A DNA stretch of 42,997 bases from Acholeplasmatales bacterium (GTDB taxonomy: Bacteria; Bacillota_I; Bacilli_A; Izemoplasmatales; Izemoplasmataceae): the NCBI GenBank assembly GCA_007694145.1, contig RECF01000056.1, positions 1 through 42,997 of the forward strand, written 5' to 3'. The translations under genes and the position numbers were made by a program. The stretch's first letter is position 1; each line of letters begins with the position of its first letter. Below are positions 5,302 through 31,438 of the stretch, piece by piece. The notes below the pieces were generated by a model. It ran no database searches. It was not told where the DNA came from and saw only the letters and a list, made by a program, of their open reading frames with translations.

Positions 5302-5937
5302 ATGCATTCAATACGCCAACACGTCACCATCGAATGGGAAGTGAAACGGTCTCGTTTCATCGCCCATCTCATCCCTGTCGAGCATCTTGATGCTGTCGAA
5401 AAGCACCTGAGGGCGCTTCGCCATGCGCATCCCGATGCCAGCCACCACTGTAGCGCATATGTCCTCGGAGCTCAAGGGGACGTGCAAAAAAGCGATGATG
5501 ACGGTGAACCCTCCCAAACTGCCGGTCTCCCCATCCTCGAAGTCTTGCGCAAACACGCGCTCACACACGTCCTTTGTGTCGTCATTCGCTATTATGGTGG
5601 CATCAAACTCGGTGCCGGCGGCTTGATTCGGGCCTATGCAAAAAGCACGGCTCTCGCCGTCAAAGAGGCTGAGATGACCGTGCCGGAAACGTTTCTTACG
5701 TTGACACTCGATGTCTCGTTTGCGATCGCGGGAAAACTCGAGGGTTTTCTGCGTGAACAAACCAAGGTCACCGATGTCCGCTACGGCACCGACGTGACCT
5801 TTATCGTTGAGTTGCTTGAAGACGCTTATCCTGTTGTTGCTGCAAAGGTACGCGACATGAGTGCCGGTGCTGCTCATTTTACCATCGTGGCACGCATGAC
5901 ACGTTTTCGGGTGATGCGATCTGCCACAAAAACCTAA
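5302..5937 (+). CDS. yigZ: YigZ/IMPACT family protein
   Basis: A 211-residue protein of the UPF0029/IMPACT family. The N-terminal domain carries the family phrases SRFIAHLIPV, ASHHCSAYVLG, SDDDGEPSQTAGLPIL and VIRYYGGIKLGAGGL with RAYAKSTALAV after it; the smaller C-terminal domain is DUF1949-like. In eukaryotes IMPACT modulates Gcn2; the bacterial function is not settled, and a link to ribosome or tRNA biology is only suggested by the fold. The start is ATG 5302, eight bases after GAGGAGGTG; the TTG one codon earlier is less likely. It is monocistronic, and its last 4 bases overlap the convergent DUF1146 gene, with no terminator visible between them. Confidence 0.9.
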   Translation: MHSIRQHVTIEWEVKRSRFIAHLIPVEHLDAVEKHLRALRHAHPDASHHCSAYVLGAQGDVQKSDDDGEPSQTAGLPILEVLRKHALTHVLCVVIRYYGGIKLGAGGLIRAYAKSTALAVKEAEMTVPETFLTLTLDVSFAIAGKLEGFLREQTKVTDVRYGTDVTFIVELLEDAYPVVAAKVRDMSAGAAHFTIVARMTRFRVMRSATKT

Positions 5938-6161
5938 AATCGCCCCATGACGGTCGCAGTCAAATCAATCAGGCGAATGAGCGTCGCTGTCACCACACCC
6001 GCTAAAGCAATGCTTAAAAGCACATACATCGTCTGGATTTGCCAAATGGCCGACTTTTGAAAAAACTGACTCAAATCAGCGGCCATCAACGCTTTGAACG
6101 TCAACGGAAACACGATAAAAAATAGCAACAACTCCGACCACGCAAGCAATAACGTGTCCAT
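5934..6161 (-). CDS. DUF1146 family small membrane protein
   Basis: A 75-residue protein with two predicted membrane helices (roughly residues 4-26 and 41-65) separated by a short loop, ending in VMGRF. Length, two-helix layout and the conserved helix-end phrase LIRLIDLTATVMGRF fit DUF1146 (YwzB-like) proteins of Bacillota, whose function is unknown. I start at ATG 6161, preceded by AAAGGA at 9-10 bases; a TTG at 6179 would add six residues. It follows the NusG-II gene after a short gap and is probably co-transcribed with it. Its end overlaps yigZ tail-to-tail by 4 bases. Confidence 0.7.
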   Translation of the reverse strand: MDTLLLAWSELLLFFIVFPLTFKALMAADLSQFFQKSAIWQIQTMYVLLSIALAGVVTATLIRLIDLTATVMGRF

Positions 6162-6175
6162 GATTTCACGTCCTT

Positions 6176-6625
6176 TCAACTGATGACATCGTCTTGTTCT
6201 TCTTCCTCGGCTAATACAGTAATAACAATATAGTTAGGCAGGCATGTCAGCGGTTGATACGGAGAATCCGTGAAACCCTGCAGTCGACAAATATTTTGCG
6301 GGCTCGTTTCTTCGATTACGCGGACCCGTCCCTCCGCATGCTCGATGACAACCACACCCAGTTCGCCCATCACGCACGTAATTGCCGGTTCGGCAAAGCA
6401 GCGGCGATACACCGGGTGGCTTTCATCTTGCGCGGGACGAAACACACGTGTCTCGTCCAACACCTCATGGCTACCGTCGGCAAGGTCAATGCGTAATATC
6501 GGTGTATCTCGATAGCTGACCAGCGCGATCGAACCGCTTTCACCTTGCAAGAAAAAGAGTGCTACGATGCCACTTAGCGCGACCACGATGATGACCGCAA
6601 TCAAGATTATGTCATTGCGCCGCAT
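6176..6625 (-). CDS. NusG domain II-containing membrane-anchored protein (EetA-like)
   Basis: A 149-residue protein with one N-terminal membrane anchor (residues ~4-28, IILIAVIIVVALSGIVALFF) and an extracytoplasmic beta-rich domain matching the NusG domain II family found outside transcription (GSIALVSYRDTPILRIDL, then a conserved GVVVIEHAEGRVRV and SPQNICRLQGF). Such proteins stand next to Gx-transporter, ApbE and FMN-binding genes in Bacillota; from memory, Listeria EetA carries this domain. A role in flavin-based electron export is inferred from that context. Start at ATG 6625 with GGTGAG five bases upstream; ATG 6637 lies too close to its AAAGG. It is divergent from the FMN lipoprotein gene and co-oriented with the DUF1146 gene. 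Confidence 0.75.
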   Translation of the reverse strand: MRRNDIILIAVIIVVALSGIVALFFLQGESGSIALVSYRDTPILRIDLADGSHEVLDETRVFRPAQDESHPVYRRCFAEPAITCVMGELGVVVIEHAEGRVRVIEETSPQNICRLQGFTDSPYQPLTCLPNYIVITVLAEEEEQDDVIS

Positions 6626-6649
6626 GACGCTCACCATCCTTTCAATGAT

Positions 6650-6655
6650 ATTGTA
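6650..6655 (-). promoter_or_regulatory. -10 element of the NusG-II gene (extended type)
   Basis: Minus strand TGGTACAAT, giving a leader of about 20 bases before the ATG at 6625; no clear -35. Confidence 0.5.
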
Positions 6656-6753
6656 CCATAATTTCGTCAGATTATCGTCGATAGACAATTATTTATAATC
6701 CTTTTCAAACAGATAAAAACTTAAACGTTTACACTGCGAATCTTGCATTAGTT

Positions 6754-6782
6754 TTGACATTTTGTATTTCAGACACTATAAT
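6754..6782 (+). promoter_or_regulatory. Consensus promoter of the FMN-binding lipoprotein gene
   Basis: TTGACA (6754-6759) and TATAAT (6777-6782) with exactly 17 bases between them: a perfect housekeeping promoter, one of very few in the window, suggesting high expression. AGGAGG follows at 6813-6818. Confidence 0.9.
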
Positions 6783-6825
6783 AAATAACGGTTGGAAACC
6801 ACAAAAAATTCTAGGAGGAAAATGA

Positions 6826-7866
6826 ATGAAAAAAGTATTGGCACTACTGTTAGTTATGGTTTTCGCACTGACGCTCGGCGCTTGTAATGGCGATGACCCG
6901 ATTGCGGACCTGCAAGAACAACTTGATGCACTTCAATCTACCATCACTGCGCTTGAAAGTGATATCGAAGACTTAGAAGGCGACCTGTCTGCACTTGAAT
7001 CAACTTTGAGCGCACTTCAAGCTGCCCACACAGCGCTTGAGGCCGCCATGGGTGAAGATAAAGCTGCTTTGGAAGCTGAAATTGCTGTACTCGAACAAGC
7101 ACTCGTCTTGGTCGGGCTGCAAATTCGCGCCGCACTCGGACATGTCGATGTCCACCACGGTGTCGGTTATGACCTCGTACACGGTCACTATGTCGGTATC
7201 GCACACGTAACGGTTGCTGAAGGCGTCATCATCGGCGCAACCGTCGATGAGTACTTCCTGCCTTATAGCTGGGGCAACATCGGCGCTATCGGCGAACAGG
7301 AAGAGCCTGCAGCGGACCAATTCTTTGTTCGCGGTACCCGCAATCGTAATAACATCTATGCCAAGTATCTTGTTATCGCTGGTTATGAATGTGTCGGCCA
7401 TGTAGAAGGTGAAGCTGGCTCACAATCACCAAAATACATGTGCGACATTGATGGTGTAGACGTTGAAATCGAAGACTGGGTTGCCGAAGCTGAAGCCAAT
7501 GCCAAAGCTTATGCTGAATCATTTGACGGCTTCACCACATGGGCTGAAAGCACCTACAACTATATCGCTGATGAAAACTTCGACCGTCATGATTCTTATG
7601 AAGTCGCAGATGCTTCGGCTAGCGTTCACATCCTCAAGTCAATCGCACCCTACTGGCGTTTTGGTGCGCTCGGTTGGCTCGGCAACGCACGCGCTACTGA
7701 AGCCGCTGTACTCGGTATGAGTTTGACTGGTGATGAAACCCTCGTAAGAGGCGAAGAAGATAACCTTTGGAGTGTCGACGACGCTGTTACAGGCGCGACT
7801 TGGTCTGACTTCCCCGACTACTTCGAAACACTCGTCCGTGCTTACAACAACGCAATCGCTGAATAA
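6826..7866 (+). CDS. FMN-binding lipoprotein with coiled-coil stalk (PplA/RnfG-like electron carrier)
   Basis: A 346-residue secreted lipoprotein. The signal peptide ends in the lipobox LTLGAC, with the lipidated Cys at residue 20. Residues ~25-95 are a heptad-rich coiled coil (repeated LxALES/LxALQ units). The rest is an FMN-binding domain (GYDLVHGHYVGIAHVTV; VDEYFLPYSWG). Near the end is DAVTGAT (319-325), which fits the Dxx(S/T)GAT motif that ApbE enzymes flavinylate on the final Thr. This marks it as an extracytoplasmic carrier of covalent FMN, like RnfG or Listeria PplA. A consensus promoter and an AGGAGG seven bases before the ATG predict abundance. An ApbE gene lies 2.3 kb away and RnfC/RnfD-like genes are between. 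Electron partners are inferred. Confidence 0.88.
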   Translation: MKKVLALLLVMVFALTLGACNGDDPIADLQEQLDALQSTITALESDIEDLEGDLSALESTLSALQAAHTALEAAMGEDKAALEAEIAVLEQALVLVGLQIRAALGHVDVHHGVGYDLVHGHYVGIAHVTVAEGVIIGATVDEYFLPYSWGNIGAIGEQEEPAADQFFVRGTRNRNNIYAKYLVIAGYECVGHVEGEAGSQSPKYMCDIDGVDVEIEDWVAEAEANAKAYAESFDGFTTWAESTYNYIADENFDRHDSYEVADASASVHILKSIAPYWRFGALGWLGNARATEAAVLGMSLTGDETLVRGEEDNLWSVDDAVTGATWSDFPDYFETLVRAYNNAIAE

Positions 7867-7880
7867 CCCATTAAAAAAAT

Positions 7881-7912
7881 AAGGAGATGGCCACCGGCTG
7901 TCTCCTTTTTTT
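7881..7912. terminator. Bidirectional terminator between the FMN lipoprotein and RnfD-like genes
   Basis: AAGGAGA (7881-7887) pairs with TCTCCTT (7901-7907), with an inner GCC/GGC; T run on the plus strand and an A run at 7873-7879 on the other side. It serves both convergent genes. Confidence 0.8.
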
Positions 7913-7922
7913 ATCCTTTGTT

Positions 7923-8918
7923 TTAGAAAAACCAAATGTTGAAGAGCAAGATTATCCAGATGATACCAACCAGTACTTGCACACCCCGGACGCGACGGCG
8001 TGTCGAGCGTTGCTGAAACTGTTCAAACACCCACGTCACAAACTGCGCAAAGACAAGTGCGTACAAAGCGGCTTCAAGTAAATCGAACCGCAGTCTGAGC
8101 CAAGCTGTAAGCATAGCGGCTAGAAACGGATAAAACGCCATCATTTCCGGTGTCTCGGGCGTGGCGGTCGGCTCGGCCACAAAGAACACAAGCGCAAAGA
8201 CTGAATAACCCAGCAACAATCTAGTAAAAAGTAACCAAAGTGTTTGATCGGTGAACACGGCAAGCACAAGCACGAGCAAAATCAGATGAAATGCATACCA
8301 GACACTCATCCGAAAATGGATGATGCGTGTGACGGATAAGTAAATCCAAAGCAAGCCGAGCAGGATGAAGGCCGTTGTACCGAGGGTCAGTCCTTCATAA
8401 AAACCAAACCAGAAACGGAAACGCCCCACACTTAATGAAGACTCCTGAAAAATATTGGCCATCGTTTCAGAAAGCGGCAACCATTCACGGAAAAACAACT
8501 GAATCAAGACGATGCTGAGCAAAACTGGATGGATGATGACTTTCTTGAACATTTTATTGAACAGCCAAGTGAAAAAGCGGATGCCGACAATGGCTAAGAC
8601 AATCATCGTAAGCGGTGCCCTTGCCGGCAAAAGCAATGCCGCAAGGAGCCCTGCAGTCAGCGGTTGCATATACCGTTCGAGATAACCGCTCGATGGTTCT
8701 TTCCGTAGCCATTTTCGCGCGACTTCCCAAGCGGCTGTGAACCCGACCGCAAGCAAGACTTGCGCGATGGCGAAAAGCAACTGTGCCCACCCTAGTACCG
8801 CTTGCAAAATCAGGGCGACCAAGCTCACAAAAACCACAGCGATGTGATAACTGATCCATCGTTTCAGCGTGTTCTCCGCGGTGCTGACCATCGGGCTTTC
8901 CCGCACGACGCTGATCAT
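7923..8918 (-). CDS. RnfD/NqrB-like integral membrane protein
   Basis: A 331-residue, multi-helix membrane protein (about nine hydrophobic segments). Family-like landmarks occur in RnfD order: HPVLLSIVLIQL, EGLTLGTTAFILLGLLWIY (compare the GxxGETS..LLG region of RnfD), and EPTATPE followed by helices, matching the TDPxTTP region. The S-G-A-T site where RnfD carries covalent FMN is not visible. In Rnf and Nqr complexes this subunit passes electrons and helps move ions. It starts at ATG 8918, overlapping the RnfC-like stop by 4 bases (ATGA), with GAGGC upstream, so the two are translationally coupled. RnfA, RnfB and RnfE are absent here. The family call is good; function as an ion pump is unproven. 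Confidence 0.75.
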   Translation of the reverse strand: MISVVRESPMVSTAENTLKRWISYHIAVVFVSLVALILQAVLGWAQLLFAIAQVLLAVGFTAAWEVARKWLRKEPSSGYLERYMQPLTAGLLAALLLPARAPLTMIVLAIVGIRFFTWLFNKMFKKVIIHPVLLSIVLIQLFFREWLPLSETMANIFQESSLSVGRFRFWFGFYEGLTLGTTAFILLGLLWIYLSVTRIIHFRMSVWYAFHLILLVLVLAVFTDQTLWLLFTRLLLGYSVFALVFFVAEPTATPETPEMMAFYPFLAAMLTAWLRLRFDLLEAALYALVFAQFVTWVFEQFQQRSTRRRVRGVQVLVGIIWIILLFNIWFF

Positions 8919-10066
8919 GATTTGCCTCGCTTCATGGTCTGTTTGGCTTTTTGAACAAAAGCCATGACATTGATTTTTGATGGGCAGTAAAATGAACAAA
9001 TCCCACAATCGATGCAAACATCGCTTTTCATGTAATCAAGGACAATTCCATCTTCAACGGTATGCATGATTTTTGAAGGAAGAATACCGACTGGACAATG
9101 TTCATTGCACTGGCCACAGGCAATACACGGATAGACTTCAAGTTCCTGATGTGCTTCAACATGCAGGCTGACCATCTCTGTGGTGATGGCAAACTGATCA
9201 TGCGATAGTGTACGGTTTTCAAGTAAACTGTTCAAATGTAGCATCGCAAGATTGGTCGGTGTGAAATCCTGGAAGACTTTGCGTAAGTCATCCATCATCG
9301 TTCCCAGTCGAACCGTAAACACGGTTGGTTGGCGTGTCAATGCGCCACTGATGACAAAACGCGTCAACACGCACGGGCGGTGATGGGTGATCATATCATG
9401 CAAGCGCAACAAGGATTCAAGCCGCAACAAGCGATAAGGCGTTTCGCGAACCAGCGCGTCATGAAACACGCGGTTGATGTGTTTATGGGCGTAATCGGCT
9501 TGCTTTTCCGGCCGGACACGGCGAATCACAACGGGCAAGTCGGCCCGTTCGAATGCTGAGACATCCACATCCATCGGCGCGAGTACATGAATGGTTTCCG
9601 CTGGCCAAAAATCTTGTAAGACGCGTAAAACCTCAACACTGTTTTGATAGTCTTCGGCCGCATGTTTGGCATCGAGTGATACGAAGGGTTCATTCATGAA
9701 GGGTAAATCGACGATGAGCGGCAGTCCTTCGATAAACGGATACGACTCTAAGCGGCTCGGTGGTTTGAAATAGAGACTGAGTAAACTTCTGATATCCATT
9801 TTGGCAATTGGTTCGTGCACGATGTTCTTGAAATTGTTATCGATGATGCAAACACGTGTGCGTTTGCCAAAAGGATCTTCACGGGTAACGGTTTGTACCA
9901 CGGTGCCACTGACAGGGCTGTATGGTGTCTCTGTCTTGCCGACAAGCAAAGGTTCACCGAGTGCCACTGAATCCCCAATCGACTTGCAAAGACGCGTGTC
10001 ATCAAGCGTGTCGAGATAGACCGCAACACGTCTTGGTTGTGTTAATGTTTTAAATGCAGATATCAC
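8915..10066 (-). CDS. RnfC-like iron-sulfur electron-transfer protein
   Basis: A 383-residue cytoplasmic protein. The N-terminal barrel resembles RnfC (SIGDSVALGEPLLVG, then SPVSGTVVQTV), the middle is a Rossmann-like RnfC/Nqo1-type region, and the C-terminus has two 4Fe-4S motifs: C314-x2-C317-x2-C320-x3-C324-P and C351-x2-C354-x2-C357-x3-C361-P. RnfC accepts electrons from NADH or ferredoxin at the inner face. The usual glycine-rich NADH/FMN loop of full-length RnfC is not obvious, so the donor is uncertain. The start is GTG 10066, seven bases after AAGGAGG. The gene forms a two-gene unit with the RnfD-like gene and is divergent from apbE; an inverted repeat brackets its -10. Confidence 0.8.
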   Translation of the reverse strand: MISAFKTLTQPRRVAVYLDTLDDTRLCKSIGDSVALGEPLLVGKTETPYSPVSGTVVQTVTREDPFGKRTRVCIIDNNFKNIVHEPIAKMDIRSLLSLYFKPPSRLESYPFIEGLPLIVDLPFMNEPFVSLDAKHAAEDYQNSVEVLRVLQDFWPAETIHVLAPMDVDVSAFERADLPVVIRRVRPEKQADYAHKHINRVFHDALVRETPYRLLRLESLLRLHDMITHHRPCVLTRFVISGALTRQPTVFTVRLGTMMDDLRKVFQDFTPTNLAMLHLNSLLENRTLSHDQFAITTEMVSLHVEAHQELEVYPCIACGQCNEHCPVGILPSKIMHTVEDGIVLDYMKSDVCIDCGICSFYCPSKINVMAFVQKAKQTMKRGKS

Positions 10067-10086
10067 GGTCTTCCCTCCTTATGAAC

Positions 10087-10116
10087 TGGTCAAACCCCAT
10101 TATACCATGTTGACCA
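10087..10116 (-). promoter_or_regulatory. Extended -10 promoter of the rnfC/rnfD-like genes inside an inverted repeat
   Basis: Minus strand TGGTATAAT occupies 10099-10107. It lies between TGGTCAA (10087-10093) and TTGACCA (10110-10116), perfect 7-bp inverted arms, a likely operator. Confidence 0.6.
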
Positions 10117-10156
10117 AACACTTCTGTGATTTTTTTTGCAGGATTGACAGTGTTTA

Positions 10157-10165
10157 TGATATAAT
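10157..10165 (+). promoter_or_regulatory. Extended -10 promoter of apbE
   Basis: TGATATAAT. The TTGACA at 10144 is only 10 bases upstream and cannot be its -35; TTTGCA near 10135 is the best alternative. AAAGGAG at 10177-10183 precedes the ATG. Confidence 0.6.
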
Positions 10166-10192
10166 CAACGGTGTGGAAAGGAGTCTTTTTTT

Positions 10193-11464
10193 ATGCGAAC
10201 TGTACACTGGTTTAAGACACGGTTCATCTATGGCCTTGTCGCACTGCTTTTCGGCCTGCTGGTTTCCTGTGGTACTGCCGACGACAATCCCGATGATCCT
10301 AATTTGCCCGCTCCAAGCGACCTCACTGAGCACACCCGCTCTTACTTTGATTACTTTGGCACACATATCGTGGTGCGCATTTGGGGCGACGATGCCCTCG
10401 ATCATACCAAGATTTTCACGGAGATCGATGCGTTGTTACGTCATGTACACACCCACGCAACCCGCTATGACCCTTTCCCTGATACGGTGAATGTTCATAC
10501 CATCAATGCACAACCTGACACATGGCACACCGTCGATCCGATGCTGATTGATATGGTTGAACTCGGACAAAACTATTACAACCATCCACTAGGGAATCAG
10601 GTGTTCAATATCACCTTGGGGAAAGTACTTGATGTTTGGGCCGACTACCGTGATCGCTGTTTAGCGACCCGATTAGATCCGGTCCCTGATTGCGAGGTGC
10701 CTAGTCTTGAGACTTTGCAAGACGCCGCTGGTGATATGACTGAACTGAATCCAAGCGCCATCGAACTCGACCGTGAAAACAATCGCTTGCGTATCCCTGA
10801 AGGGCTTGGGCTTGACCTCGGCGGCATTGCCAAAGGCTACGGCGCTAGAGAGGTAGGCCGTTACTTGCGAACGACCGATGTATCCCATTTCATGGTCAAT
10901 GCTGGCGCTTCAAACATTGAGTTTTACGGCGCCCATCCAAGCGGCACCCGTGATTATTGGACGGTCGGTACACGCGATCCCTTTAATCCGCTGAGCACCT
11001 ATGCCCAACTGAAACTGTACTCCGGTCAAAACTCAGTCACCAGCGGTGACTATGAACGCTTCTTTACTGTTGATGGGGTGAACTATCACCATATTATCGA
11101 CCCGGCAACGCTGTACCCTTCGATGCATATCCGAGCCACAACCATCGTGGGGCCTGATCCGCTCCTTGCGGATATTTATTCCACGCTTGTCTTCGTGTTG
11201 CCCATAGAAGAAGGCATCGCCTTCATCGATGCACTCGATGATTATGAAGCGATTTGGATGCTCGCAGACCGTACGGTCCGTTTCAGTGAAAACTTCGAAG
11301 CACAACATCTCAACGAACTGCGCATTGAGAACACGCGAGATGATGCAGCACCGCTGTTGATGAGTTTACTAGGTTTTGCGGTCTTTGTCGGTTTGAGTTT
11401 CCTTGTTGTCACTCTCAAAAACCGTGCCCAGAAAACAACTAAAGAAAATCCGGCCCATCCTTGA
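10193..11464 (+). CDS. apbE: FAD:protein FMN transferase (ApbE) lipoprotein
   Basis: Transfers FMN from FAD to a Thr in target flavoproteins. The 423-residue protein has a lipoprotein signal (LLVSC, Cys at residue 26). The ApbE fold shows typical phrases: SYFDYFGTHIVVRIWG at the start, LDLGGIAKGYGAREV, MVNAGASNIEFYG, SGDYERFF, YHHIIDP and the metal/FAD-site region PLLADIYSTLVFVL. An unusual extra membrane helix lies near the C-terminus (about residues 386-407, LLMSLLGFAVFVGLSFLVV), followed by a basic tail, so the protein may be anchored at both ends. Its obvious substrate is the neighbouring FMN lipoprotein with DAVTGAT. It lies divergent from the rnfC-like gene and convergent with the Gx-transporter gene. 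Confidence 0.93.
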   Translation: MRTVHWFKTRFIYGLVALLFGLLVSCGTADDNPDDPNLPAPSDLTEHTRSYFDYFGTHIVVRIWGDDALDHTKIFTEIDALLRHVHTHATRYDPFPDTVNVHTINAQPDTWHTVDPMLIDMVELGQNYYNHPLGNQVFNITLGKVLDVWADYRDRCLATRLDPVPDCEVPSLETLQDAAGDMTELNPSAIELDRENNRLRIPEGLGLDLGGIAKGYGAREVGRYLRTTDVSHFMVNAGASNIEFYGAHPSGTRDYWTVGTRDPFNPLSTYAQLKLYSGQNSVTSGDYERFFTVDGVNYHHIIDPATLYPSMHIRATTIVGPDPLLADIYSTLVFVLPIEEGIAFIDALDDYEAIWMLADRTVRFSENFEAQHLNELRIENTRDDAAPLLMSLLGFAVFVGLSFLVVTLKNRAQKTTKENPAHP

Positions 11465-11480
11465 GGATAGCCGGATTTTT
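11445..11480. terminator. Shared terminator hairpin overlapping both convergent gene ends
   Basis: AAAATCCGGC (11445-11454) pairs with GCCGGATTTT (11470-11479). The apbE stop TGA lies in the loop and the stem runs up to the stop of the opposite gene. Confidence 0.85.
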
Positions 11481-12030
11481 ATGTGTAGCTTTGCTGTTCG
11501 ACAATGGGCTGCAGTGTTTTAAGCAAAACCGCCGCAAGTCGTCCGGTGAAGATGCCAGCTGGGATCGCGATAAGCAACATAAACGGCATATAGGCAATGA
11601 TGCCAATGGTCTCAAAAAATATGATGGCGACGATAATTTGACCGATAACATGCCCAACTGCACCCATGATGGAAACACTGATGATGGAAAAACCTTTAAG
11701 TGCCTTGAAAATAAGCATCAAGAAGAAAGCGAGAATTCCACCGACCAAGCTTGTCCAAAACGGGACACTGAATAGCCCAATCGCCAGTTGACCGACAATC
11801 ATGATGCGCAACAACAAAAGGACGAAACTGTCTTTCGTCCCATACGTATAAAGCATCAGCATCACGACGACATTCGCCAGACCAATACGGATGCCACCCG
11901 CTCCGACAACCGGACCAAGCAAAACGGCGATTGGTTGGGTCAAAGCTTGCATGGTGGTCCGCTCGACAATGTTGAGGACAACACTGACTGCAAGCATTAC
12001 CGCCATAAAAGTCAATCTTCTTGTTTTCAT
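11479..12030 (-). CDS. Gx transporter family protein (EetB-like; Hpre_diP_synt_I family)
   Basis: A 183-residue integral membrane protein with about five helices. It matches the Gx transporter family, often misnamed heptaprenyl diphosphate synthase component I: N-terminal MKTRRLTFMAVMLAVSVVLN, then GAGGIRIGLANVVVML, and a glycine-rich later helix (GAVGHVIGQIIVAI). This is an ECF S-component-like fold; from memory, Listeria EetB belongs here and works with EetA in flavin-based electron export. Start at ATG 12030 with AGGTGA five bases upstream; ATG 12036 is possible. It lies 39 bases after a DegV gene in the same direction, so it is likely the last gene of a PadR-HAAS-DegV unit. Family secure, role inferred. 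Confidence 0.82.
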   Translation of the reverse strand: MKTRRLTFMAVMLAVSVVLNIVERTTMQALTQPIAVLLGPVVGAGGIRIGLANVVVMLMLYTYGTKDSFVLLLLRIMIVGQLAIGLFSVPFWTSLVGGILAFFLMLIFKALKGFSIISVSIMGAVGHVIGQIIVAIIFFETIGIIAYMPFMLLIAIPAGIFTGRLAAVLLKTLQPIVEQQSYT

Positions 12031-12069
12031 ATCCATCACCTGTGTGTCGCATTCAAGCGACGCGGTCAT

Positions 12070-12957
12070 TCAGTAAACGACGCGTTTAGGAATCAGCGCA
12101 TCGAGGTCAAAATAGGCAACACCGACTGTACCAGCCCCCGTATGACAACCGATGACCGGTGTGATAGGCGCAGTATAATAGGTGTGATTAGGGAAGGCGT
12201 CTTCTATTCTTGACTTCAAATAGTTATAACCTTCCGTGTTATCGCTCGTATTGTATGTCACGACAAAGTTTCGCAGTGACTTCAAATCTTTGATCACGTG
12301 GTCAGCCATTTTCTCAAGTGCTTTTCTCTGTGTACGGACTTTTTCATACGGGACGATTTTCCCGCTTTCGTTGACTGCGAGAATCGGCTTGATTTTGAGC
12401 AATCCTCCCAAGAACCCTTGGGCATTCGACAATCGACCATTTTTAACAAGTAATCGCAAGTTATCGACCATAAAGTACTGTTTACGGCTCAGTGAAAGTT
12501 TATCAAGTGATTCGAGCACGGCTTTGGCCGATGCGCCAGTTTCAAGCATTTTCAACGCCTTAATGGTAAGAAAACCTTCGCTGATGGCTGCGTTCTTTGA
12601 ATCGAAAACATGAACCTTCAGTTCACCTAAAAAAGCATTTTTAGCCATGAGACACGTCTGGTATGTGCCTGATAAGGCACTGGAGATGGAAACGACAATC
12701 GCATCGGTATAGCCTTTCTTCTCAAGGGTTTCATACAAATCGCTCACTTCGCCAAGGGCCGGCATCGATGAGGTCGGGACCACATCGGGATCGTCACGCA
12801 ATATTTGATAGAACTGTTCAGCATTCATTTGTGTGAAATCATCATATTGTGCATCCTTGAGTAAAATTTTACACCGTAACATATATAAATCTGCATGGGT
12901 GAAATCGAGATAATCAAGACAACCTGTACTGATGGCGATGACAGCGGTTTTTTCCAT
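12070..12957 (-). CDS. DegV family fatty-acid-binding protein (first of three)
   Basis: DegV proteins bind a fatty acid and, as FakB, present it to the kinase FakA for phosphorylation. This 295-residue protein has the N-terminal domain with TSSMPALGE (the TSxP motif; Ser binds the carboxylate), VVSISSALSGTYQ, VFDSKNAAISEG, and the C-terminal part with NGRLSNAQGFLGGLLKIKPIL and GCHTGAGTVGVAYF (usual GxHxGPG region, here TGAG). No FakA is in the window. It starts two bases after the preceding gene, with AAGGAGAG upstream, in the PadR operon. Among the three DegV proteins here it is the most divergent at the C-terminal loop (C and T instead of the A and P of the other two). Confidence 0.9.
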   Translation of the reverse strand: MEKTAVIAISTGCLDYLDFTHADLYMLRCKILLKDAQYDDFTQMNAEQFYQILRDDPDVVPTSSMPALGEVSDLYETLEKKGYTDAIVVSISSALSGTYQTCLMAKNAFLGELKVHVFDSKNAAISEGFLTIKALKMLETGASAKAVLESLDKLSLSRKQYFMVDNLRLLVKNGRLSNAQGFLGGLLKIKPILAVNESGKIVPYEKVRTQRKALEKMADHVIKDLKSLRNFVVTYNTSDNTEGYNYLKSRIEDAFPNHTYYTAPITPVIGCHTGAGTVGVAYFDLDALIPKRVVY

Positions 12958-14282: not shown

Positions 14283-15137
14283 CTATTTTTTAGGAACCCA
14301 GCCAAGGGCGACTGTACCGGGACCAGCATGCGCACCAACGACCGGCGTGAGCGGATAGTCTTTGATTTCGCCAAGGTTCGGCAATCTTTGTAGCAAATCC
14401 TGTTTGACTTCTTCGACTTCTTCGGGTGCGTGCGCATGGGCGATGAAAACGATGTTGTTGTCGTTGTGATAATCTTCAACATATGCTTCAACAATCCGTT
14501 TGAGTGCTTTGGAACGGGTGCGGATTTTTTCAAGCGGTACAAGTTTACCTTCACGGTTCAACTGTAACATGGGTTTGACTTTGAGCAGGCTGCCCAAGAA
14601 ACCTTGTGCGCCACTCAACCGACCGTTGCGGACGAGATATTTCAAGGTATCGACAGAAACGAGAACCCCACGGTTTTCACGAATGTGAATCAAGCGATCG
14701 ATAATTTCTGTACTCGTTTTACCGGCTTTGACCATTTCTGCAGCCTGCAGAACCATATAGGCTTCTGGATAAGAGACAGACAAGGAATCAAACACATTCA
14801 CTTTGATGCCTTCAATCATGTTGGCTGCCATTTTAGCGCCTTCAAATGTGCCACTCAGTTTCGATGAAATGGTGATGGCGATAATTTCATCATAGCCATC
14901 CGCCTTGAGTTGCTCATAGGTCTCAAGGATGACACCGGTTGCTGTTTGTGCTGTAGAAACGTGCAAATCGGGGTTTTCATTCAGACGTTTGTAGAAATCT
15001 TCAGCCTGAATGTCGATGAAATCCGTGTATTCTTCGCTGCCAAACAATAAAATAGACCGAATAACACGAATATCATAATCATGTTGCAAGTAATCGATAC
15101 CGGAGTTGCCGCATACTACCAAACCAATTTTTCCCAT
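14283..15137 (-). CDS. DegV family fatty-acid-binding protein (second of three)
   Basis: A 284-residue FakB-type protein: GNSGIDYL near the N-terminus, VSTAQTATG at the TSxP position (here STAQT, so the canonical Ser-x-Pro is altered), ISSKLSGTFEGAK, VFDSLSVSYPEAY, NGRLSGAQGFLGSLLKVKPML, and GAHAGPGTVALG. The start is ATG 15137, four bases after GGAGGT. It precedes the MarR gene by 33 bases and its promoter carries the FabT-like palindrome, linking it to lipid-sensing control. Most similar by eye to the third DegV at 41.3-42.2 kb. Ligand chain type is unknown. Confidence 0.9.
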   Translation of the reverse strand: MGKIGLVVCGNSGIDYLQHDYDIRVIRSILLFGSEEYTDFIDIQAEDFYKRLNENPDLHVSTAQTATGVILETYEQLKADGYDEIIAITISSKLSGTFEGAKMAANMIEGIKVNVFDSLSVSYPEAYMVLQAAEMVKAGKTSTEIIDRLIHIRENRGVLVSVDTLKYLVRNGRLSGAQGFLGSLLKVKPMLQLNREGKLVPLEKIRTRSKALKRIVEAYVEDYHNDNNIVFIAHAHAPEEVEEVKQDLLQRLPNLGEIKDYPLTPVVGAHAGPGTVALGWVPKK

Positions 15138-15157
15138 GTGAACCTCCATATTATTAT

Positions 15158-15252: not shown

Positions 15253-16635
15253 TTAACGCGTGGTGGTTTTCAAGTACTCATCCATGTGGTGGGCGGCATC
15301 TTTTCCTGCCCCCATGGCAAGGATGACCGTCGCGGCGCCCGTCACCACATCGCCCCCTGCAAAGACGCCGGGTAGGCTGGTCATCTGGAACTCATCGGTG
15401 ATGATGCCTCCCCAAGGCTGCGTCTGCAGTCCCAGCGTATTATCCTTGATGATCGGGTTCGGCTTTTGACCGATTGCGATAATGATATTATCGATGTCAA
15501 ACGTTACGAACTCACCGGTTGGCAACGGCCGTTGTCGACCTGAAGAGTCCGGTTCGCCAAGCTTCATTTTCTCGCAGCGCACTTGTTTGACCACGTGATT
15601 TTCACCGATAAGCTCAACTGGATTGGTCAACAAGCGCAAGTCGATCCCTTCATCTTCGGCATGATGGATTTCATCAAGCCGTGCCGGTAAACTTTTCCGG
15701 TCGCGACGGTATAAAATGAAGACATCTTTGGCGCCGAGTCGCTTAGCAGTGCGCGCAGCATCCATCGCCACGTTCCCACCCCCGACAACCGCAATGGTAT
15801 CCCCGAGTTTCATCGGTGTTTTACTCAAAGGTTCATTGCGTGCTTTCATCAGGTTGACGCGGGTCAAAAACTCATTGGCATAGTATACACCGTTTAAGTT
15901 TTCACCGGCTACACCAAGGGCACTCGGCAGTCCGGCGCCGCTGCCGATGAAGACCGATTGATAGCCATCTTCAAACAACTGCTCGATGGTGATGCTCTTG
16001 CCAACGACCACATCCCTTACAAAGGTGACGCCCATTTTTTTGAGGTTATCAATCTCGTTTTTGACGATGTCCTTGGGCAAACGGAAATCAGGGATGCCAT
16101 AAGAGAGAACCCCACCATACTCATGCAACGCTTCAAAAATGGTTACATCATAGCCTTTGCGGCGCATGCTGGCTGCATTCGCAAGTCCGGCTGGGCCACT
16201 TCCGACAACCGCAACCTTGATGCCGTTGTTTTCTTTGACGGGCTTGTCGGCAAGGTTCTTGTCCATGCCGTAGTCGCCGACAAAACGTTCGAGGGCGCCG
16301 ATGGCGACACTTTCACTTTTAATGTTTAGGATACAAGCGCCTTCACATTGTGACTCTTGCGGGCAAACCCGACCACAGATTGACGGGAGGATGTTGTCTT
16401 CGTAAATGGTTTCAAACGCTTCATCAAGCGCATCCTCAAGCAACAGCTTGATGAACTCAGGGATTTTGACCCGAACCGGGCACGCCACGACGCACCGGGG
16501 ATTTTTACACTGGATGCATCGCGCCGCTTCGGCACGGGCTTCTTCAAGCGAGTAGCCCAGTGCGACTTCAAGAAAGTGATTCCGGCGCTCAATGGCATCT
16601 TGATTACGCATCGGTGTTCTGGGTATCTTATTCAT
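15253..16635 (-). CDS. nfnB: NADP-dependent ferredoxin-NAD(+) reductase subunit NfnB (GltD/glutamate synthase small-chain family)
   Basis: A 460-residue flavoprotein of the GltD-like family. The N-terminal part has the two Fe-S motif groups CIQCKNPRCVVACP and CGRVCPQESQCEGAC; then an FAD Rossmann motif VVGSGPAGLAN and a second nucleotide motif VVGGGNVAMDAARTAKRLG for NADPH; the C-terminal FAD phrase is AGGDVVTGAATVI. On its own it could be called a glutamate synthase subunit, but its start overlaps an NfnA-type gene by 8 bases, and that pairing defines NfnAB. The complex couples NADH and reduced ferredoxin to NADP+ reduction (electron bifurcation when reversed). It probably balances NADH, NADPH and ferredoxin in this fermenter. 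Confidence 0.88.
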   Translation of the reverse strand: MNKIPRTPMRNQDAIERRNHFLEVALGYSLEEARAEAARCIQCKNPRCVVACPVRVKIPEFIKLLLEDALDEAFETIYEDNILPSICGRVCPQESQCEGACILNIKSESVAIGALERFVGDYGMDKNLADKPVKENNGIKVAVVGSGPAGLANAASMRRKGYDVTIFEALHEYGGVLSYGIPDFRLPKDIVKNEIDNLKKMGVTFVRDVVVGKSITIEQLFEDGYQSVFIGSGAGLPSALGVAGENLNGVYYANEFLTRVNLMKARNEPLSKTPMKLGDTIAVVGGGNVAMDAARTAKRLGAKDVFILYRRDRKSLPARLDEIHHAEDEGIDLRLLTNPVELIGENHVVKQVRCEKMKLGEPDSSGRQRPLPTGEFVTFDIDNIIIAIGQKPNPIIKDNTLGLQTQPWGGIITDEFQMTSLPGVFAGGDVVTGAATVILAMGAGKDAAHHMDEYLKTTTR

Positions 16636-17446
16636 CTTTCAACCTCAAAAAACAGTCGTGTTCTTCCTTTTTGTAGTAAGACTGGCGGGCAATCAATTCA
16701 TCGAAGTCAACCGCTTCACCGGCAAAATCCGGCCCGTCAATGCAGGCGAAAAAGGTTTTACCAGCGATGCTGACGCGACAGTTTCCACACATACCGGTAC
16801 CATCAATCATAATCGGATTTAGTGATACATCAACACTGCGCTGATGGCTCTTGGCCATTTCAACGACGTATTTCATCATGATCGCAGGACCGATGGCGAT
16901 GACGTGATCGATGGATGCATCGGTTTCAAGTCTAATTTTCAGTGCATCGGTGACCCGGCCTTCTTGTCCTAAACTACCGTCATCGGTCGTAATATAAACA
17001 TGATCGCAGATAGCACGGTACTCATCAAGAAGAATGAGATATTCCTGTGAGCGCGCGCCTAAGATAGCATCGACTCGGATGCCTTTTTCCTTGTACGCTT
17101 TCAATTGCGGCAATAACGGCGCGCTGCCGACGCCCCCAGCAACACCGATGACATGCTGTTTGTCGCGTATGTGAGCAGCTTTTCCAAGTGGTCCTTGAAA
17201 GGTCTCAAGCGTGTCGCCTTCTTGTTTGAATGACAACTGGCGGGTCGTGTACCCCAGCTTTTGATAGATGATGACCACATCGGTCTGATCGTGATCAACA
17301 ATCGTCAAAGGTACCCGCTCACCATCAGCATCTACCCTGACCATCACAAAATGTCCCGGCTGGGCATTGCGGGCGACAAACGGGGCGCGAACACGCATCC
17401 ATTCGATGTCGTTTTGCAATATGCGTTTCTCAACTATATCGTACAT
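16628..17446 (-). CDS. nfnA: NfnA: ferredoxin-NADP+ reductase-type subunit (FAD/[2Fe-2S])
   Basis: A 272-residue protein of the PyrK/sulfide dehydrogenase-like FNR family. An FAD-binding barrel (RVPLTIVDHD; residues 1-~95) is followed by an NAD-binding domain with GVAGGVGSAPLLPQLKAY. A C-terminal cysteine cluster, DGTGMCGNCRVSIAGKTFFAC, is the [2Fe-2S] loop, and DGPDFAGEAVDFDEL is the characteristic NfnA tail region. It starts at ATG 17446 with GAGGTG upstream and overlaps nfnB. In NfnAB this subunit binds NAD(H); NfnB holds NADP(H) and the bifurcating flavin. Alternative: a lone dihydroorotate dehydrogenase electron-transfer subunit, unlikely without pyrD next to it. Confidence 0.88.
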   Translation of the reverse strand: MYDIVEKRILQNDIEWMRVRAPFVARNAQPGHFVMVRVDADGERVPLTIVDHDQTDVVIIYQKLGYTTRQLSFKQEGDTLETFQGPLGKAAHIRDKQHVIGVAGGVGSAPLLPQLKAYKEKGIRVDAILGARSQEYLILLDEYRAICDHVYITTDDGSLGQEGRVTDALKIRLETDASIDHVIAIGPAIMMKYVVEMAKSHQRSVDVSLNPIMIDGTGMCGNCRVSIAGKTFFACIDGPDFAGEAVDFDELIARQSYYKKEEHDCFLRLKDE

Positions 17447-28098: not shown

Positions 28099-28120
28099 AA
28101 AAAGGCCACCGAAGCAGCCT
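28099..28120 (-). terminator. Terminator of the lysine operon (TTCG tetraloop)
   Basis: On the minus strand AGGCTGC-TTCG-GTGGCCT followed by T; the 5' arm begins inside the kamE stop codon. Confidence 0.8.
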
Positions 28121-28886
28121 ATTTATCCGTGGTCATCTTATGGGTCTTGACCCCACGTTCACGTAAAGCTTTCACCGCGAAACTCGCTACGTCAAAGGCA
28201 AACTTGCCTGGCCCGAATCCTGCATCGAACCCGAGCTCCTTAGCGAGTGCATGGCTGATTCGTGGGCCCCCGATGATGACTAGGAATCGGTCGCGAAGAC
28301 CTTCAGCCTCAAGCAGTTCGACGAAGGCTGTCAAATTGCGAATGTGCATGTCTTTTTGGGTCACAGTTTGCGATATCAGGATAACATCGGCACCCACTTC
28401 GAGTGCTTTGTCAAGCAAGACTTCATTGTCGACCTGACTGCCGAGATTGATGGCTTTAATGCCTGCATACCGTTCTAATCCATAATGTCCGGCAATGCCT
28501 TTCATGTTCATAATCGCGTCGATGCCGACCGTATGGGCATCGGTGCCTGTTGAAGCCCCGATGAAAACTAGTGGTTCAACAAACGTATCGCGAATGTATG
28601 TTTCAATGTCGGTCTTGTTCATCGCGGTCTCACCGTGGTCGATGACTTCAAGCGCCTCTAAGTCTATGGTCTGTGTGAGTGTGCCATAAACGATATAAAA
28701 ACTGTATCCTTTGCCAAGCGGACGTTGTTCCGCTACCACGACATCAACAAGATGCATCGCATGCGCAATGGCTTTTGCGGCCGCTTCACCTTTTGCGTCG
28801 CATGGGACGGGTAAAGAAAAACTGACCTGGACTTTGCCATCATGCAATGTATCACCATAAGGGCGAACTTGTTTTTTATTGCTCAT
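28119..28886 (-). CDS. kamE: Lysine 5,6-aminomutase beta subunit
   Basis: Adenosylcobalamin- and PLP-dependent enzyme that moves the 6-amino group of L-beta-lysine (or D-lysine) to carbon 5. The 255-residue beta subunit carries the cobalamin-binding motif D116-x-H118-x-x-G121 (GTDAHTVGID) and the PLP lysine K144 in AGIKAINLGSQ, the same position known for the Clostridium sticklandii enzyme. The C-terminal Rossmann fold has FLVIIGGPRISHALAKELGFDAGFGPG. Its start overlaps kamD by 11 bases. It is the last gene of the operon; the adenosylcobalamin could come from the PduO enzyme at 42.3-42.8 kb. Confidence 0.95.
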   Translation of the reverse strand: MSNKKQVRPYGDTLHDGKVQVSFSLPVPCDAKGEAAAKAIAHAMHLVDVVVAEQRPLGKGYSFYIVYGTLTQTIDLEALEVIDHGETAMNKTDIETYIRDTFVEPLVFIGASTGTDAHTVGIDAIMNMKGIAGHYGLERYAGIKAINLGSQVDNEVLLDKALEVGADVILISQTVTQKDMHIRNLTAFVELLEAEGLRDRFLVIIGGPRISHALAKELGFDAGFGPGKFAFDVASFAVKALRERGVKTHKMTTDK

Positions 28887-30444
28887 CCGGTCTATCCTCC
28901 TTCAAAGCCGTGCACATCGTGTCAAGAACTGGGTTCGCATATAGGGCATCCTTTTGGAACACACCTTCTAATCCCTTACCCTGTGTCCGGCCGCGACCAA
29001 TCCCCGCGAACCGGCCTTTCTCAAGCGTCGCTAACAAGCCTTCCTGCTCAATCACCTCAAGCAATGCGGTGGCTTCATTCAATACCGTCTGAGCACGCTG
29101 TTCAACCAACCCGCCTGGCTTAATTTCGAAAGCGTCGCCAAACGATGCCATCGCCCGCGCGACATAGGCGGCATTATCTAAAGCCAGTGCCCGGTCGCTC
29201 ATGAAAGGGGTGTGGATGGCTTCGGTCATCATCCCTAGCAGATGGATGTCTTGGTGTGTCATCACGGTAACCATATTAAAGAGCGCATTTTGAACTGTCC
29301 CCATGAAAATATCCCCTTTCATGTGCTTTGTCGGCGGCATGTACTTCAGGGGGGCATCGGGAAACAGTTGCCTAGAGAGTTGCGCCTGCGCAACTTCAAG
29401 CAAGAAACTGTCCGGGTGCGCCGGATCGATTTCAAAAGCATGACCCAGACCCATTAAACGACTGGGCATGCCGGCCTTGAGGGCGAAGTGTTCATTGATG
29501 AACTGTGAGGCGATGACTGTGTGGGCGTGCTCATACGCATCCGCCGTTGTCAAATAATTGTCTTCACCAGTATTGATGATGATATCGGCGTAAGCACTCA
29601 AAACGCGGGAAAAGTACTGATCAATCAAGGTCCGTTGCATGTTGATGTCACGGAAAATGATACCATAGAGCGAGTCATTCAACATCATGTCGAGCCGCTC
29701 AAGTGCACCCAGTGCAGCGATTTCGGGCATGCATAGCCCTGAGGCATAGTTGACGAGCTGGATGTATCGACCGTGTCGTGTTCCGGCCTCATCAAGTGCA
29801 GCGCGCATCAAACGAAAGTTTTCTCGCGTGGCGGTCGTGCCACCGAATCCTTCCCGGGTTGCACCGTGTGGGACATAATCTAACAATGACTGACCCGTGG
29901 TGCGAATGACGGCAACGATATCCGCCCCATTGTCAACGGCGGACAAGGCTTGCTCGATATCCTCATAAATATCACCAGTTGCAACGATTACGTACTTGTC
30001 GGGTAAAGGCTTATCATGGGGGTTGATACGATGGTGTCGTCGATAAGCACTTTGCTTGTCGATGGCAGCGCGCACACGCGCAAAGGCTTCAAGCAAGCGT
30101 GTCATATCCGGGGCGCTTTGTGTCATGCATGTAGACAAATCGAGCGTGCCAGCATCGACCGCTTCCGCAATTGCCTGCGGTGTGAGGCGGGTGGTGTTCA
30201 TGGCGTGTGCCATCGCAAAGGCTGCGCCTTTTTCTAGCACCCCGGATGCTTTGAGGTGGTCGATGACAACGTTGGGATAGGGCACATCAAAACGGTTGAC
30301 GCCATCGATTCCTAGCAATCGCAAAACGGTTCGCTCAACCGCTACCGTTGAATACTGTTCTAGGTGATGATGGACATCCTCAGCAATCTTTCTTGCGGCG
30401 GCGCGACAACGATTGATTTGTCGGCTGTCTAAGTTGAGATACAT
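28876..30444 (-). CDS. kamD: Lysine 5,6-aminomutase alpha subunit
   Basis: The 522-residue TIM-barrel subunit pairs with KamE and binds substrate and PLP/adenosyl parts. Visible family phrases: RRHHRINPHDKPLPDKYVIV near residue 150, GADIVAVIRTTGQSLLDYVPHGATREGFGGTTATRENF, RYIQLVNYASGLCMPEIA, MLNDSLYGIIFRDINMQRTLIDQYFSR and MPPTKHMKGDIF. Start at ATG 30444, 9-10 bases after AAAGGA; the open frame extends six codons further. It begins 4 bases after kamB. Length equals the usual ~516-520 residues, with no damage. Confidence 0.95.
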   Translation of the reverse strand: MYLNLDSRQINRCRAAARKIAEDVHHHLEQYSTVAVERTVLRLLGIDGVNRFDVPYPNVVIDHLKASGVLEKGAAFAMAHAMNTTRLTPQAIAEAVDAGTLDLSTCMTQSAPDMTRLLEAFARVRAAIDKQSAYRRHHRINPHDKPLPDKYVIVATGDIYEDIEQALSAVDNGADIVAVIRTTGQSLLDYVPHGATREGFGGTTATRENFRLMRAALDEAGTRHGRYIQLVNYASGLCMPEIAALGALERLDMMLNDSLYGIIFRDINMQRTLIDQYFSRVLSAYADIIINTGEDNYLTTADAYEHAHTVIASQFINEHFALKAGMPSRLMGLGHAFEIDPAHPDSFLLEVAQAQLSRQLFPDAPLKYMPPTKHMKGDIFMGTVQNALFNMVTVMTHQDIHLLGMMTEAIHTPFMSDRALALDNAAYVARAMASFGDAFEIKPGGLVEQRAQTVLNEATALLEVIEQEGLLATLEKGRFAGIGRGRTQGKGLEGVFQKDALYANPVLDTMCTALKEDRPDEQ

Positions 30445-30448
30445 GGTG

Positions 30449-31438
30449 TCACGTCCTTTCAAGCACGTTATAAACAGGGGTCTTCAGTGCCGTCACCGCA
30501 GCCGTGTAAAAGTGCGCAGCCTCATAGTGATGGCCCGTCGGACTCCAAGGATTGAGGGTGATGGCCAGCAATGGGCAACGGCGTGTGACATAAGCGGATA
30601 CGCCCAAATGATCAAAGACGGCGAACTCTTGCAAAGACAGCGTATATTTGGTTGCATCCTCAGCCACAATGTTAAACCCGCCGAGACGGTGATCCCGCAA
30701 AAAAGACGTCAACCGTGAGGTGATAGCACCGCGCACATATAGCGTACCCCCGCGTATTAAGCGGTCCTTGATGGTTGTCAGGACTCGATAGTCTTTTTTC
30801 AACCAAACAAGGTCGCCCTCTGCATCGTGATAGGCAAGACGCATCTCAGCAGGCCAGCGTGGTAGGTCCGAAAACGTCGGCAACGCAAACAAACGTTCGA
30901 CATGGGCCGGCTTCTTGATGGTTTCCGCCATGTCAGGTGAAACCGCGGCACCGGTCGCAAGCACCATGCCCGACATGGATTTGATGCCGGCAAATGTCCG
31001 CCGCTCAAGCGCCCCGTCAATGAGCACGTGGGGGTGATACGCTTGTAGGTGTTCGATCACGCTCTGCAAATCACGGTTGGTCGTTGGACCGGCCACACAC
31101 ACCGTACCCGCTCGCCTGACACGGACGATACATACCGGCCCAAGCGCCGTTTGAAACGGTGTTTCTTCAAGCACTGTCACGGTGGCTGTCGCTGCGGACA
31201 AGGTGCTGCGTGCGGTGGCGATGACCATCCCAGCAACCGTGTCGATGGCCGGTTTGGGCAAGCCCGTCAATTGGTCGATACTTTCTCCGTCAAGGCCGAT
31301 ACTCGTCAAAGCGACCTGTCCAGAAAAAAGCTGGATGACATGATTCAGCGTGGTCGTCTTGCCTGTATTTTTGGCCATGCCGGCAAAACCGATGACCGGG
31401 TAGGCCTCAAGACTCGTTTTCACGACGTAACCGTTCAT
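30449..31438 (-). CDS. kamB: KamB-like lysine 5,6-aminomutase reactivase subunit
   Basis: A 329-residue protein with an early P-loop, GFAGMAKNTGKTTTLNH (residues ~18-34). Further phrases are DGALERRTFAGIKSMSGMVLATGAAVSPDM and a C-terminal segment FVAEDATKYTLS-like (NIVAEDATKYTLSLQEFAVFD split by my reading). Size, P-loop and position between kamA and kamD match the protein named KamB in lysine fermenters, thought to help reactivate the aminomutase by exchanging damaged cobalamin. Its usual partner KamC, a MutS-like ATPase, is missing from this operon. The start at ATG 31438 has no recognisable ribosome site, but it lies 32 bases inside the end of kamA, so translation is probably coupled. Confidence 0.82.
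   Translation of the reverse strand: MNGYVVKTSLEAYPVIGFAGMAKNTGKTTTLNHVIQLFSGQVALTSIGLDGESIDQLTGLPKPAIDTVAGMVIATARSTLSAATATVTVLEETPFQTALGPVCIVRVRRAGTVCVAGPTTNRDLQSVIEHLQAYHPHVLIDGALERRTFAGIKSMSGMVLATGAAVSPDMAETIKKPAHVERLFALPTFSDLPRWPAEMRLAYHDAEGDLVWLKKDYRVLTTIKDRLIRGGTLYVRGAITSRLTSFLRDHRLGGFNIVAEDATKYTLSLQEFAVFDHLGVSAYVTRRCPLLAITLNPWSPTGHHYEAAHFYTAAVTALKTPVYNVLERT

Follow-up and report, generated by a model that had tools for sequence, protein, structure and literature searches.

What does a pair of genes for the RnfC and RnfD subunits of the RNF complex do, when it stands without the other subunits and next to genes known from extracellular electron transfer (EET)? This question is raised by a stretch of 42,997 nucleotides from an Acholeplasmatales bacterium (contig RECF01000056.1 of assembly GCA_007694145.1, labelled G000:C82 here, and hereafter the window), which belongs to a genome of 1.86 Mb in 94 contigs, 92.6% complete. 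The original prediction described an electron-export cluster without Ndh2, made up of RnfC/RnfD-like and EetA/EetB-like proteins. The named genes do lie where it placed them (profiles PF07009, PF03116, rnfC, PF02424 and PF07456 match), and Ndh2 is absent from the window, as it stated, but the cluster looks instead like what is left of a larger rnf locus, which relatives retain beside the same neighbours. The pair, termed RnfC' and RnfD' below, very probably descends from such a locus by loss, judging from the synteny with relatives, and its proposed role as a non-pumping electron wire, which would take electrons from a reductant in the cytosol to a lipoprotein bearing flavin, is a suggestion for which the scales are evenly balanced. 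By rising coordinate, the genes concerned are:

5934..6179, minus strand: DUF1146 small membrane protein (PF06612, E=8e-7), at the same position in relatives
6176..6688, minus strand: NusG_II protein, EetA-like (PF07009, E=4e-13), a conserved neighbour in relatives
6826..7866, plus strand: lipoprotein (lipobox LGAC) whose coiled coil is followed by a domain with the putative flavinylation motif DDAVTGAT at its end
7923..8918, minus strand: RnfD', a membrane protein of the RnfD/NqrB family, 331 residues (PF03116, E=2e-18, obtained on a longer frame)
8915..10066, minus strand: RnfC', of the RnfC family, with two [4Fe-4S] motifs and without the loop for reduced nicotinamide adenine dinucleotide (NADH) and flavin mononucleotide (FMN) (NCBIfam rnfC, E=4e-22)
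10193..11464, plus strand: ApbE FAD:protein FMN transferase (PF02424, E=6e-53)
11479..12069, minus strand: EetB-like protein of the Hpre_diP_synt_I / Gx transporter type (PF07456, E=1e-27)
12070-12957, minus strand: DegV-family protein

The cluster itself holds no RnfA, RnfB, RnfE or RnfG gene. The RnfD' frame was listed as 7923-9017, and the start at 8918 was adopted as the most likely one because the frame of the sister genome G001 begins at the matching place, and because the RnfC' stop then overlaps the RnfD' start (ATGA), in the window as in G001. ApbE carries a lipobox and a C-terminal membrane stretch, both judged by eye, and the DUF1146 protein is probably a conserved neighbour outside the electron route. 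Since related genomes repeat most of the gene order, the grouping is not due to chance.

A search with RnfD' among 150 relatives matched 65 genomes, and wider DNA was taken round 29 of these matches, its open frames being annotated with profiles grown from the window and from proteins of the same genome. Three locus types were seen: a type with a hydrogenase-like gene (HYD, 18 loci, 17 from the same family and one from another), a reduced type (seven loci, including the window), and canonical rnf loci (five, plus contig C74 of the window's genome; rnfG was undetected in one of them, L059). As far as contigs reach, the HYD order is a gene of 562-624 residues followed by rnfC, rnfD, rnfG, rnfE, rnfA and rnfB, with an RnfG of 493-794 residues where whole and an RnfB of 101-127 residues. 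The complete rnfCDGEAB is present in 12/18 HYD loci and the other six meet a contig end (L057 within rnfD), and further rnf genes follow rnfC-rnfD in 16 of the 17 same-family genomes. In all 18 loci, L041 to L058, rnfC is preceded by a gene with a match to PF02906, [FeFe] hydrogenase (for example L046:11627-13501, minus strand, and L041:5854-7623, plus strand). All three H-cluster motifs are complete under strict patterns in only 6/18 of these genes, which are for this reason not claimed as certain enzymes; the HYD locus is possibly a hydrogenase-fed RNF. HYD RnfG shows three FMN_bind stretches in the one protein scanned.

The flanks are largely shared between the types. Among same-family HYD loci, ApbE lies upstream in 13/13 cases where the DNA reaches, and EetA downstream in seven of the nine with more than 4 kb visible, six loci showing both flanks. 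The reduced loci (G000, G001, G007, G009, G013, G028 and G041) have RnfC' and RnfD' only: none of G, E, A or B was found between RnfD' and EetA in 7/7, EetA and DUF1146 adjoin RnfD' or its lipoprotein in 7/7, ApbE adjoins RnfC' in all five with that side visible, and a lipoprotein with a flavin motif or FMN_bind-like domain occupies the slot in four of the seven. A third state appeared when 13 further same-family genomes were probed through the YigZ gene, of which seven matched: G016, G031 and G012 have ApbE, a flavin-type lipoprotein, EetA, DUF1146 and YigZ together with no rnf gene, and G031 and G012 also have EetB there, while in G018, G023, G035 and G048 the contig ends too early to tell the state of the slot. 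In the RnfD' search, G016 and G031 matched only weakly (E about 1e-5), and G012 not at all. The G016 and G031 lipoproteins match PF04205 (FMN_bind) over its cut-off (36.6 and 29.2 bits), with the motif D..AGVT or D..AGVS. What stays constant in the locus is thus the flavin transferase, the lipoprotein and EetA, in most cases joined by EetB, and what varies is the rnf part.

A class-wide search of 395 genomes, made with the reduced-clade RnfD' profile only, returned five hits of at least 469 bits, each already a row of the profile, and the next best were HYD proteins at 153 bits or less; within the genomes searched, the reduced form is found in this family only. Named relatives of RnfD' are metagenome-assembled genomes called Candidatus Izimaplasma (105 pattern stretches, six relatives, five loci), whose isolate codes presumably mean Cock Soda Lake.

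How did the reduced form arise? Reduced RnfC' (six rows) and RnfD' (seven rows) form one clade each, with a support of 100 in the approximate likelihood ratio test SH-aLRT, and HYD and reduced sequences together split from canonical RNF with supports of 100 (RnfC) and 98 (RnfD). These trees come from short searches, have SH-aLRT as their sole support measure and contain long branches (L060, L058 and L040 for RnfC; L060, L003 and L058 for RnfD); in the RnfC tree the reduced group stands beside HYD (HYD support 87) and not inside it, at a place where long branches meet. The opposite direction, a gain of G, E, A and B, was rejected, as the genes of HYD loci stand in the canonical order CDGEAB.

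The pair is also under purifying selection, although its exact strength is not fixed by the saturated synonymous differences. Comparing the window with a 51%-complete sister genome, the proportions of nonsynonymous and synonymous differences (pN and pS) were 0.137 and 0.73 for RnfC' (351 codons), 0.113 and 0.80 for RnfD' (331 codons), 0.103 and 0.63 for the lipoprotein (272 codons), 0.182 and 0.80 for EetA (153 codons), and 0.114 and 0.74 for DUF1146 (73 codons). The corresponding omega values (0.055 for RnfC', 0.08 for the lipoprotein and 0.035 for DUF1146; not computable for RnfD' and EetA) are rough, because dS is near or beyond saturation. With pN/pS far below 1, a pseudogene reading was rejected.

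Both proteins are far under the NCBIfam rnfC and rnfD cut-offs, and about 18-23% identical to canonical rows, yet both are matched as homologues by profiles. For RnfC', the NCBIfam rnfC model covers only residues 219-380, at 78 bits against a cut-off of 246. The eight cysteines of the two [4Fe-4S] motifs are nevertheless invariant (8/8 in 14/14 aligned RnfC rows), and 24 of the 40 columns invariant across four canonical and five HYD rows are kept in all five reduced rows, the eight cysteines included. The GxGGxGFP loop of RnfC binds FMN and NADH; in the alignment it is present in 4/4 canonical rows, and absent from 5/5 reduced and 5/5 HYD rows. NADH is therefore an unlikely donor to RnfC', and as HYD RnfC also lacks the loop, its loss probably came before that of G, E, A and B. 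An AlphaFold2 model of RnfC' (mean predicted local distance difference test score, pLDDT, of 89) matches RnfC structures of A. vinelandii, A. woodii and C. tetanomorphum, then NqrA, with E=4e-25 and a TM-score of 0.75 by query length against RnfC 8ahx_C in Foldseek; as modelled, RnfC' has the RnfC fold. Like NqrA, an RnfC homologue without cofactors, RnfC' has lost the NADH/FMN site, but NqrA has also lost the Fe-S cysteines, according to passages of PMC4014512, and RnfC' keeps all eight.

For RnfD', a profile built from six reduced-clade members matches A. woodii RnfD (E=4e-8). RnfD rows were mapped onto V. cholerae NqrB through a profile, and the threonine aligned with T236, the last letter of SGAT in that chain and the residue that bears FMN, is a threonine in 17/17 rows. 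RnfD' matches PF03116 only, with no PF00175 fusion. RnfD-family frames of 618, 743 and 730 residues in other families of the class (G178:C8, G357:C33 and G284:C101) exceed the length of RnfD by itself and are possible fusions.

The lipoprotein announced in the original prediction does carry the motif given there, in the form DDAVTGAT, and D..[TA]GAT is present in 5/6 aligned homologues, window included, with DVVTSAT in the sixth. The window copy is 85% identical to that of the sister genome in the search. In profile comparisons, the lipoprotein gave no match with RnfG/NqrC, and matched the AGVT lipoproteins of relatives through the signal peptide alone, so that these comparisons do not establish a common descent of the two lipoprotein types. 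A structure model built on an alignment of six rows was dropped, as its mean pLDDT was 51 and Foldseek matched nothing at E up to 0.001. Flavinylation of the lipoprotein by ApbE would draw on flavin adenine dinucleotide (FAD), and EetB is described in parts of PMC9973259 as an exporter of the energy-coupling factor (ECF) type in Listeria, which binds and exports FAD; the EetB-like protein of the window is by analogy likely to be an ECF-S FAD exporter, the genome having one ECF-T match (CbiQ) alongside the PF07456 protein. The same parts of PMC9973259 report that an eetA deletion in Listeria causes no EET defect. EetA and EetB were on these two grounds rejected as electron carriers.

Other lipoproteins stand in the HYD loci. 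Antisense genes for lipoproteins with a rhodanese domain lie between rnfB and eetA (L053:14007-15410 and L051:13793-14665) or near apbE (L046:14041-14859). In nine slot lipoproteins scanned, Rhodanese was matched in seven, which are all the HYD ones, and FMN_bind weakly in four (best E 0.0034), with D..AGVT. A link to sulfur is possible.

Does the genome have other ways of moving electrons across the membrane? RnfA/B/E had been called missing, which is true of the window but not of the genome: PF02508 (the RnfA/E family) has five matches over its cut-off, and the RnfA/E genes elsewhere form two pairs. One belongs to an rnfCDGEAB set split over two contigs, with rnfCDGEA on C74, running off the contig end, and the end of an rnfA with a short rnfB on C43; the two parts, read separately, are treated here as a single set. 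NCBIfam subfamily cut-offs are passed by the RnfC, RnfD and RnfE of this set, and its RnfB has the FeS domain only. Such RnfB proteins of about 100-123 residues with PF04060 alone and no ferredoxin domains occur in canonical and HYD sets alike (L005:3401-3772, L046:5820-6152 and L061:4682-4990, all minus strand). An NQR-like set on C80 (L003:5988-9868, minus strand) has NqrF-type, NqrE/D-type, FMN_bind and RnfD/NqrB subunits. Its NqrF-type subunit reaches 268 of 295 bits, NqrE- and NqrD-type are best names under cut-off, and for its B subunit the RnfD model gives a higher score (194 of 207 bits) than the NqrB model. Neither nqrA nor rnfC lies beside this set, PF05896 (NQRA_N) has no match in the window's genome at E up to 0.1, and none over cut-off in six genomes of the family tested. 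As for NDH-2, there are 11 Pyr_redox_2 matches in this 92.6%-complete genome: no NDH-2 model is among the matches listed for the six proteins scanned with NCBIfam, and one more was read by eye as a dihydrolipoyl dehydrogenase, these seven being the strongest of the 11. One UbiA-family protein over cut-off lies on another contig, its best NCBIfam name, DHNA polyprenyltransferase, being weak (62 of 264 bits). The split rnf set and the NQR-like set elsewhere count in part against the original prediction.

In RNF, where the electron crosses the membrane twice, the two [4Fe-4S] clusters of RnfC bridge the riboflavin of RnfD to the FMN of RnfC (PMC12174285). RnfD also has a flavin close to the outer face of the membrane. 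The ancestral locus would most likely have combined an [FeFe]-hydrogenase-like gene and rnfCDGEAB with eetB, apbE, eetA and the gene of a flavin lipoprotein; the lineage would then have lost the hydrogenase-like gene together with rnfG, rnfE, rnfA and rnfB, and only rnfC and rnfD, the output half of RNF, would have stayed. Losing G, E, A and B would remove the first membrane crossing and the pump, and the remaining pair could in principle run in reverse, with electrons entering RnfC' on the cytosolic side and leaving the cell by way of RnfD'. A cytosolic low-potential donor, which should be a one-electron carrier because RnfC' is without the FMN/NADH loop (ferredoxin being a guess, and not NADH), would reduce the Fe-S clusters of RnfC', and electrons would pass to the flavin or flavins of RnfD', then to the ApbE-flavinylated lipoprotein and to an outside acceptor, EetB supplying FAD to ApbE. 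We put forward tentatively, at a little under an even chance, that this is an RNF half-complex evolved naturally, in which the ion-pumping half was cut from a hydrogenase-linked RNF to leave a two-subunit wire, the NADH exit of RnfC' being swapped for a cytosolic entry and RnfD' feeding an outside flavin lipoprotein.

Several observations weigh against the electron wire. The RnfD' and lipoprotein genes are on opposite strands, and their co-expression is therefore not assured. The shared slot is not universal, as EetA was not found downstream in two of nine HYD loci (L041 and L044). The lipoprotein is not recognised by PF04205: a Pfam scan of the whole protein was swamped by coiled-coil matches (best 25 of 46), a rescan with the coiled coil removed gave no match at E up to 0.1, and a six-frame search of the genome at E up to 0.1 did not recover it, so that the predicted FMN attachment rests on the motif. 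The other RNF/NQR-type sets of the genome could serve the lipoprotein. RnfD' is without the S/TGAT consensus, and keeps in 7/7 reduced rows only 5 of the 25 columns invariant in canonical and HYD rows. What speaks most strongly against a simple relay through riboflavin is the partly eroded riboflavin site of RnfD'. The contacts of V. cholerae NqrB, as listed in a part of PMC10643135, are T162, G198 (via its backbone), N200 and D346. In reduced RnfD', T162 is a threonine in only 2/7, G198 is K, R, H or Q in 7/7, and N200 is an asparagine in only 2/7, while D346 remains an acid in six of the seven (E in five, D in one, Q in the other). The G198 and N200 changes weigh less, because the G198 contact is made via the backbone, and because N200 is Y also in 5/5 HYD rows and in the C80 NqrB/RnfD protein of the same genome. 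The carrier order of the original prediction remains the best mechanism available, weakened by this site.

The eroded contacts would suit another job for RnfC'D', for instance as a redox protein in which the Fe-S protein RnfC', anchored by RnfD', feeds a cytosolic or membrane acceptor with no link to the lipoprotein, its neighbours being leftovers of an old operon; so would the absence of any lipoprotein between RnfD' and EetA in 3/7 reduced loci, and its retention in three relatives without any rnf gene in the slot. These last two facts weigh against the wire as well. We regard another job as unlikely, since reduced and rnf-less loci alike have a lipoprotein of the flavin type in the slot, though its family differs, and the threonine at the FMN site is invariant. 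Might the pair instead be a second kind of output module, attaching in trans to RnfA/E/G/B of another RNF or NQR-like set, making a pump with a different electron exit? RnfA/E-family genes do occur elsewhere in all seven reduced genomes (among 15 searched), and the NQR-like operon is without nqrA, the RnfC homologue. The low identity to canonical rows and the loss of most invariant RnfD' columns speak against such docking, however, as do the own RnfC and RnfD of the canonical set, and HYD genomes carry other RnfA/E genes too, yet keep GEAB beside rnfCD; trans docking therefore seems rather improbable, slightly more so than another job. A decay of the pair toward complete loss, as in genus g16 and G012, is suggested by the occurrence of a larger rnf set, rnfCD only and no rnf gene within one family, but becomes very improbable given the low pN/pS between the window and the sister genome, and open frames with all eight cysteines kept in rows down to 27% identity with the window. 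Equally hard to credit is an EET cluster put together from Rnf-like and Eet proteins, in which EetA/EetB would lie in the electron path: the gene set is there, but the Listeria results in PMC9973259 speak by analogy against such a role for EetB and EetA, the gene order of relatives indicates an origin from an rnf locus, and RNF genes lie elsewhere in the genome.

The proposed wire can be set against known systems. RnfC and RnfD homologues in their usual order, of probable descent from an rnf operon, are common to RNF, as are eetB and apbE neighbours, reported for many Clostridia in a portion of PMC9973259. In contrast to RNF, the locus is without RnfG, E, A and B, RnfC' without the FMN/NADH loop and RnfD' without the SGAT consensus, and RnfC'D' is for these reasons not expected to be an ion pump of known kind. 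Another comparison is with the Nqr/Rnf-like two-subunit systems, in which, from excerpts of PMC8238504 and PMC11334425, an RnfD fused to an NqrF-type NAD domain works with an FMN-bind subunit, a comparable two-subunit export system being NAD(P)H-fed (PMC11334425, same excerpts). These published systems share the same logic as RnfC'-RnfD': an RnfD-type domain without flavinylation consensus, a cytosolic input, an extracytosolic flavoprotein and a proposed one-way export. They differ in that the input here is a separate Fe-S protein, RnfC', and not a fused PF00175 NAD(P)H domain, and that the lipoprotein is without an NqrC/RnfG match in profile comparison. Listeria-type EET (Ndh2, EetA, EetB, FmnA, FmnB/ApbE, PplA and DmkA/B) has in common the EetA-like and EetB-like proteins, ApbE and a lipoprotein with a flavin motif, but no NDH-2 was recognised here (7/11 Pyr_redox_2 proteins judged), and the membrane step would be taken by RnfC'D'. 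No description of an RnfC-RnfD-only system was found in the open-licence literature, searched mostly by titles and abstract openings.

Elsewhere in the window, the DegV gene listed above is one of three, with 14283-15149 and 41334-42194, both on the minus strand, and one DegV gene adjoins eetB in many relatives too. An NfnB/NfnA-like pair near the cluster (15253-17446, minus strand) encodes a GltA-family protein and an FAD/NAD-binding subunit. Genes for lysine fermentation (28119-36249, minus strand) encode lysine 5,6-aminomutase alpha and beta, lysine 2,3-aminomutase, KDD, KCE and CoA-transferase subunits, and are preceded by a lysine riboswitch (RF00168, 65 bits, 36702-36875, minus strand). 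Lysine riboswitches usually precede biosynthesis or transport genes; this one precedes degradation genes. The lysine-fermentation and NfnAB-like genes would be in keeping with a cell that has to dispose of electrons.

If the proposed wire is real, the output half of RNF alone would move electrons across the membrane, and conduction would be separated from ion pumping, the relation of the two being an open point in the mechanism of RNF and NQR. The family offers a natural series in this respect, from a hydrogenase-like gene with a larger rnf locus, through rnfCD only, to no rnf gene at all, each beside a constant flavinylation module. An annotation of RnfC and RnfD alone does not mean a working RNF, and loci named EET from their eetA/eetB content may be remnants of rnf loci.

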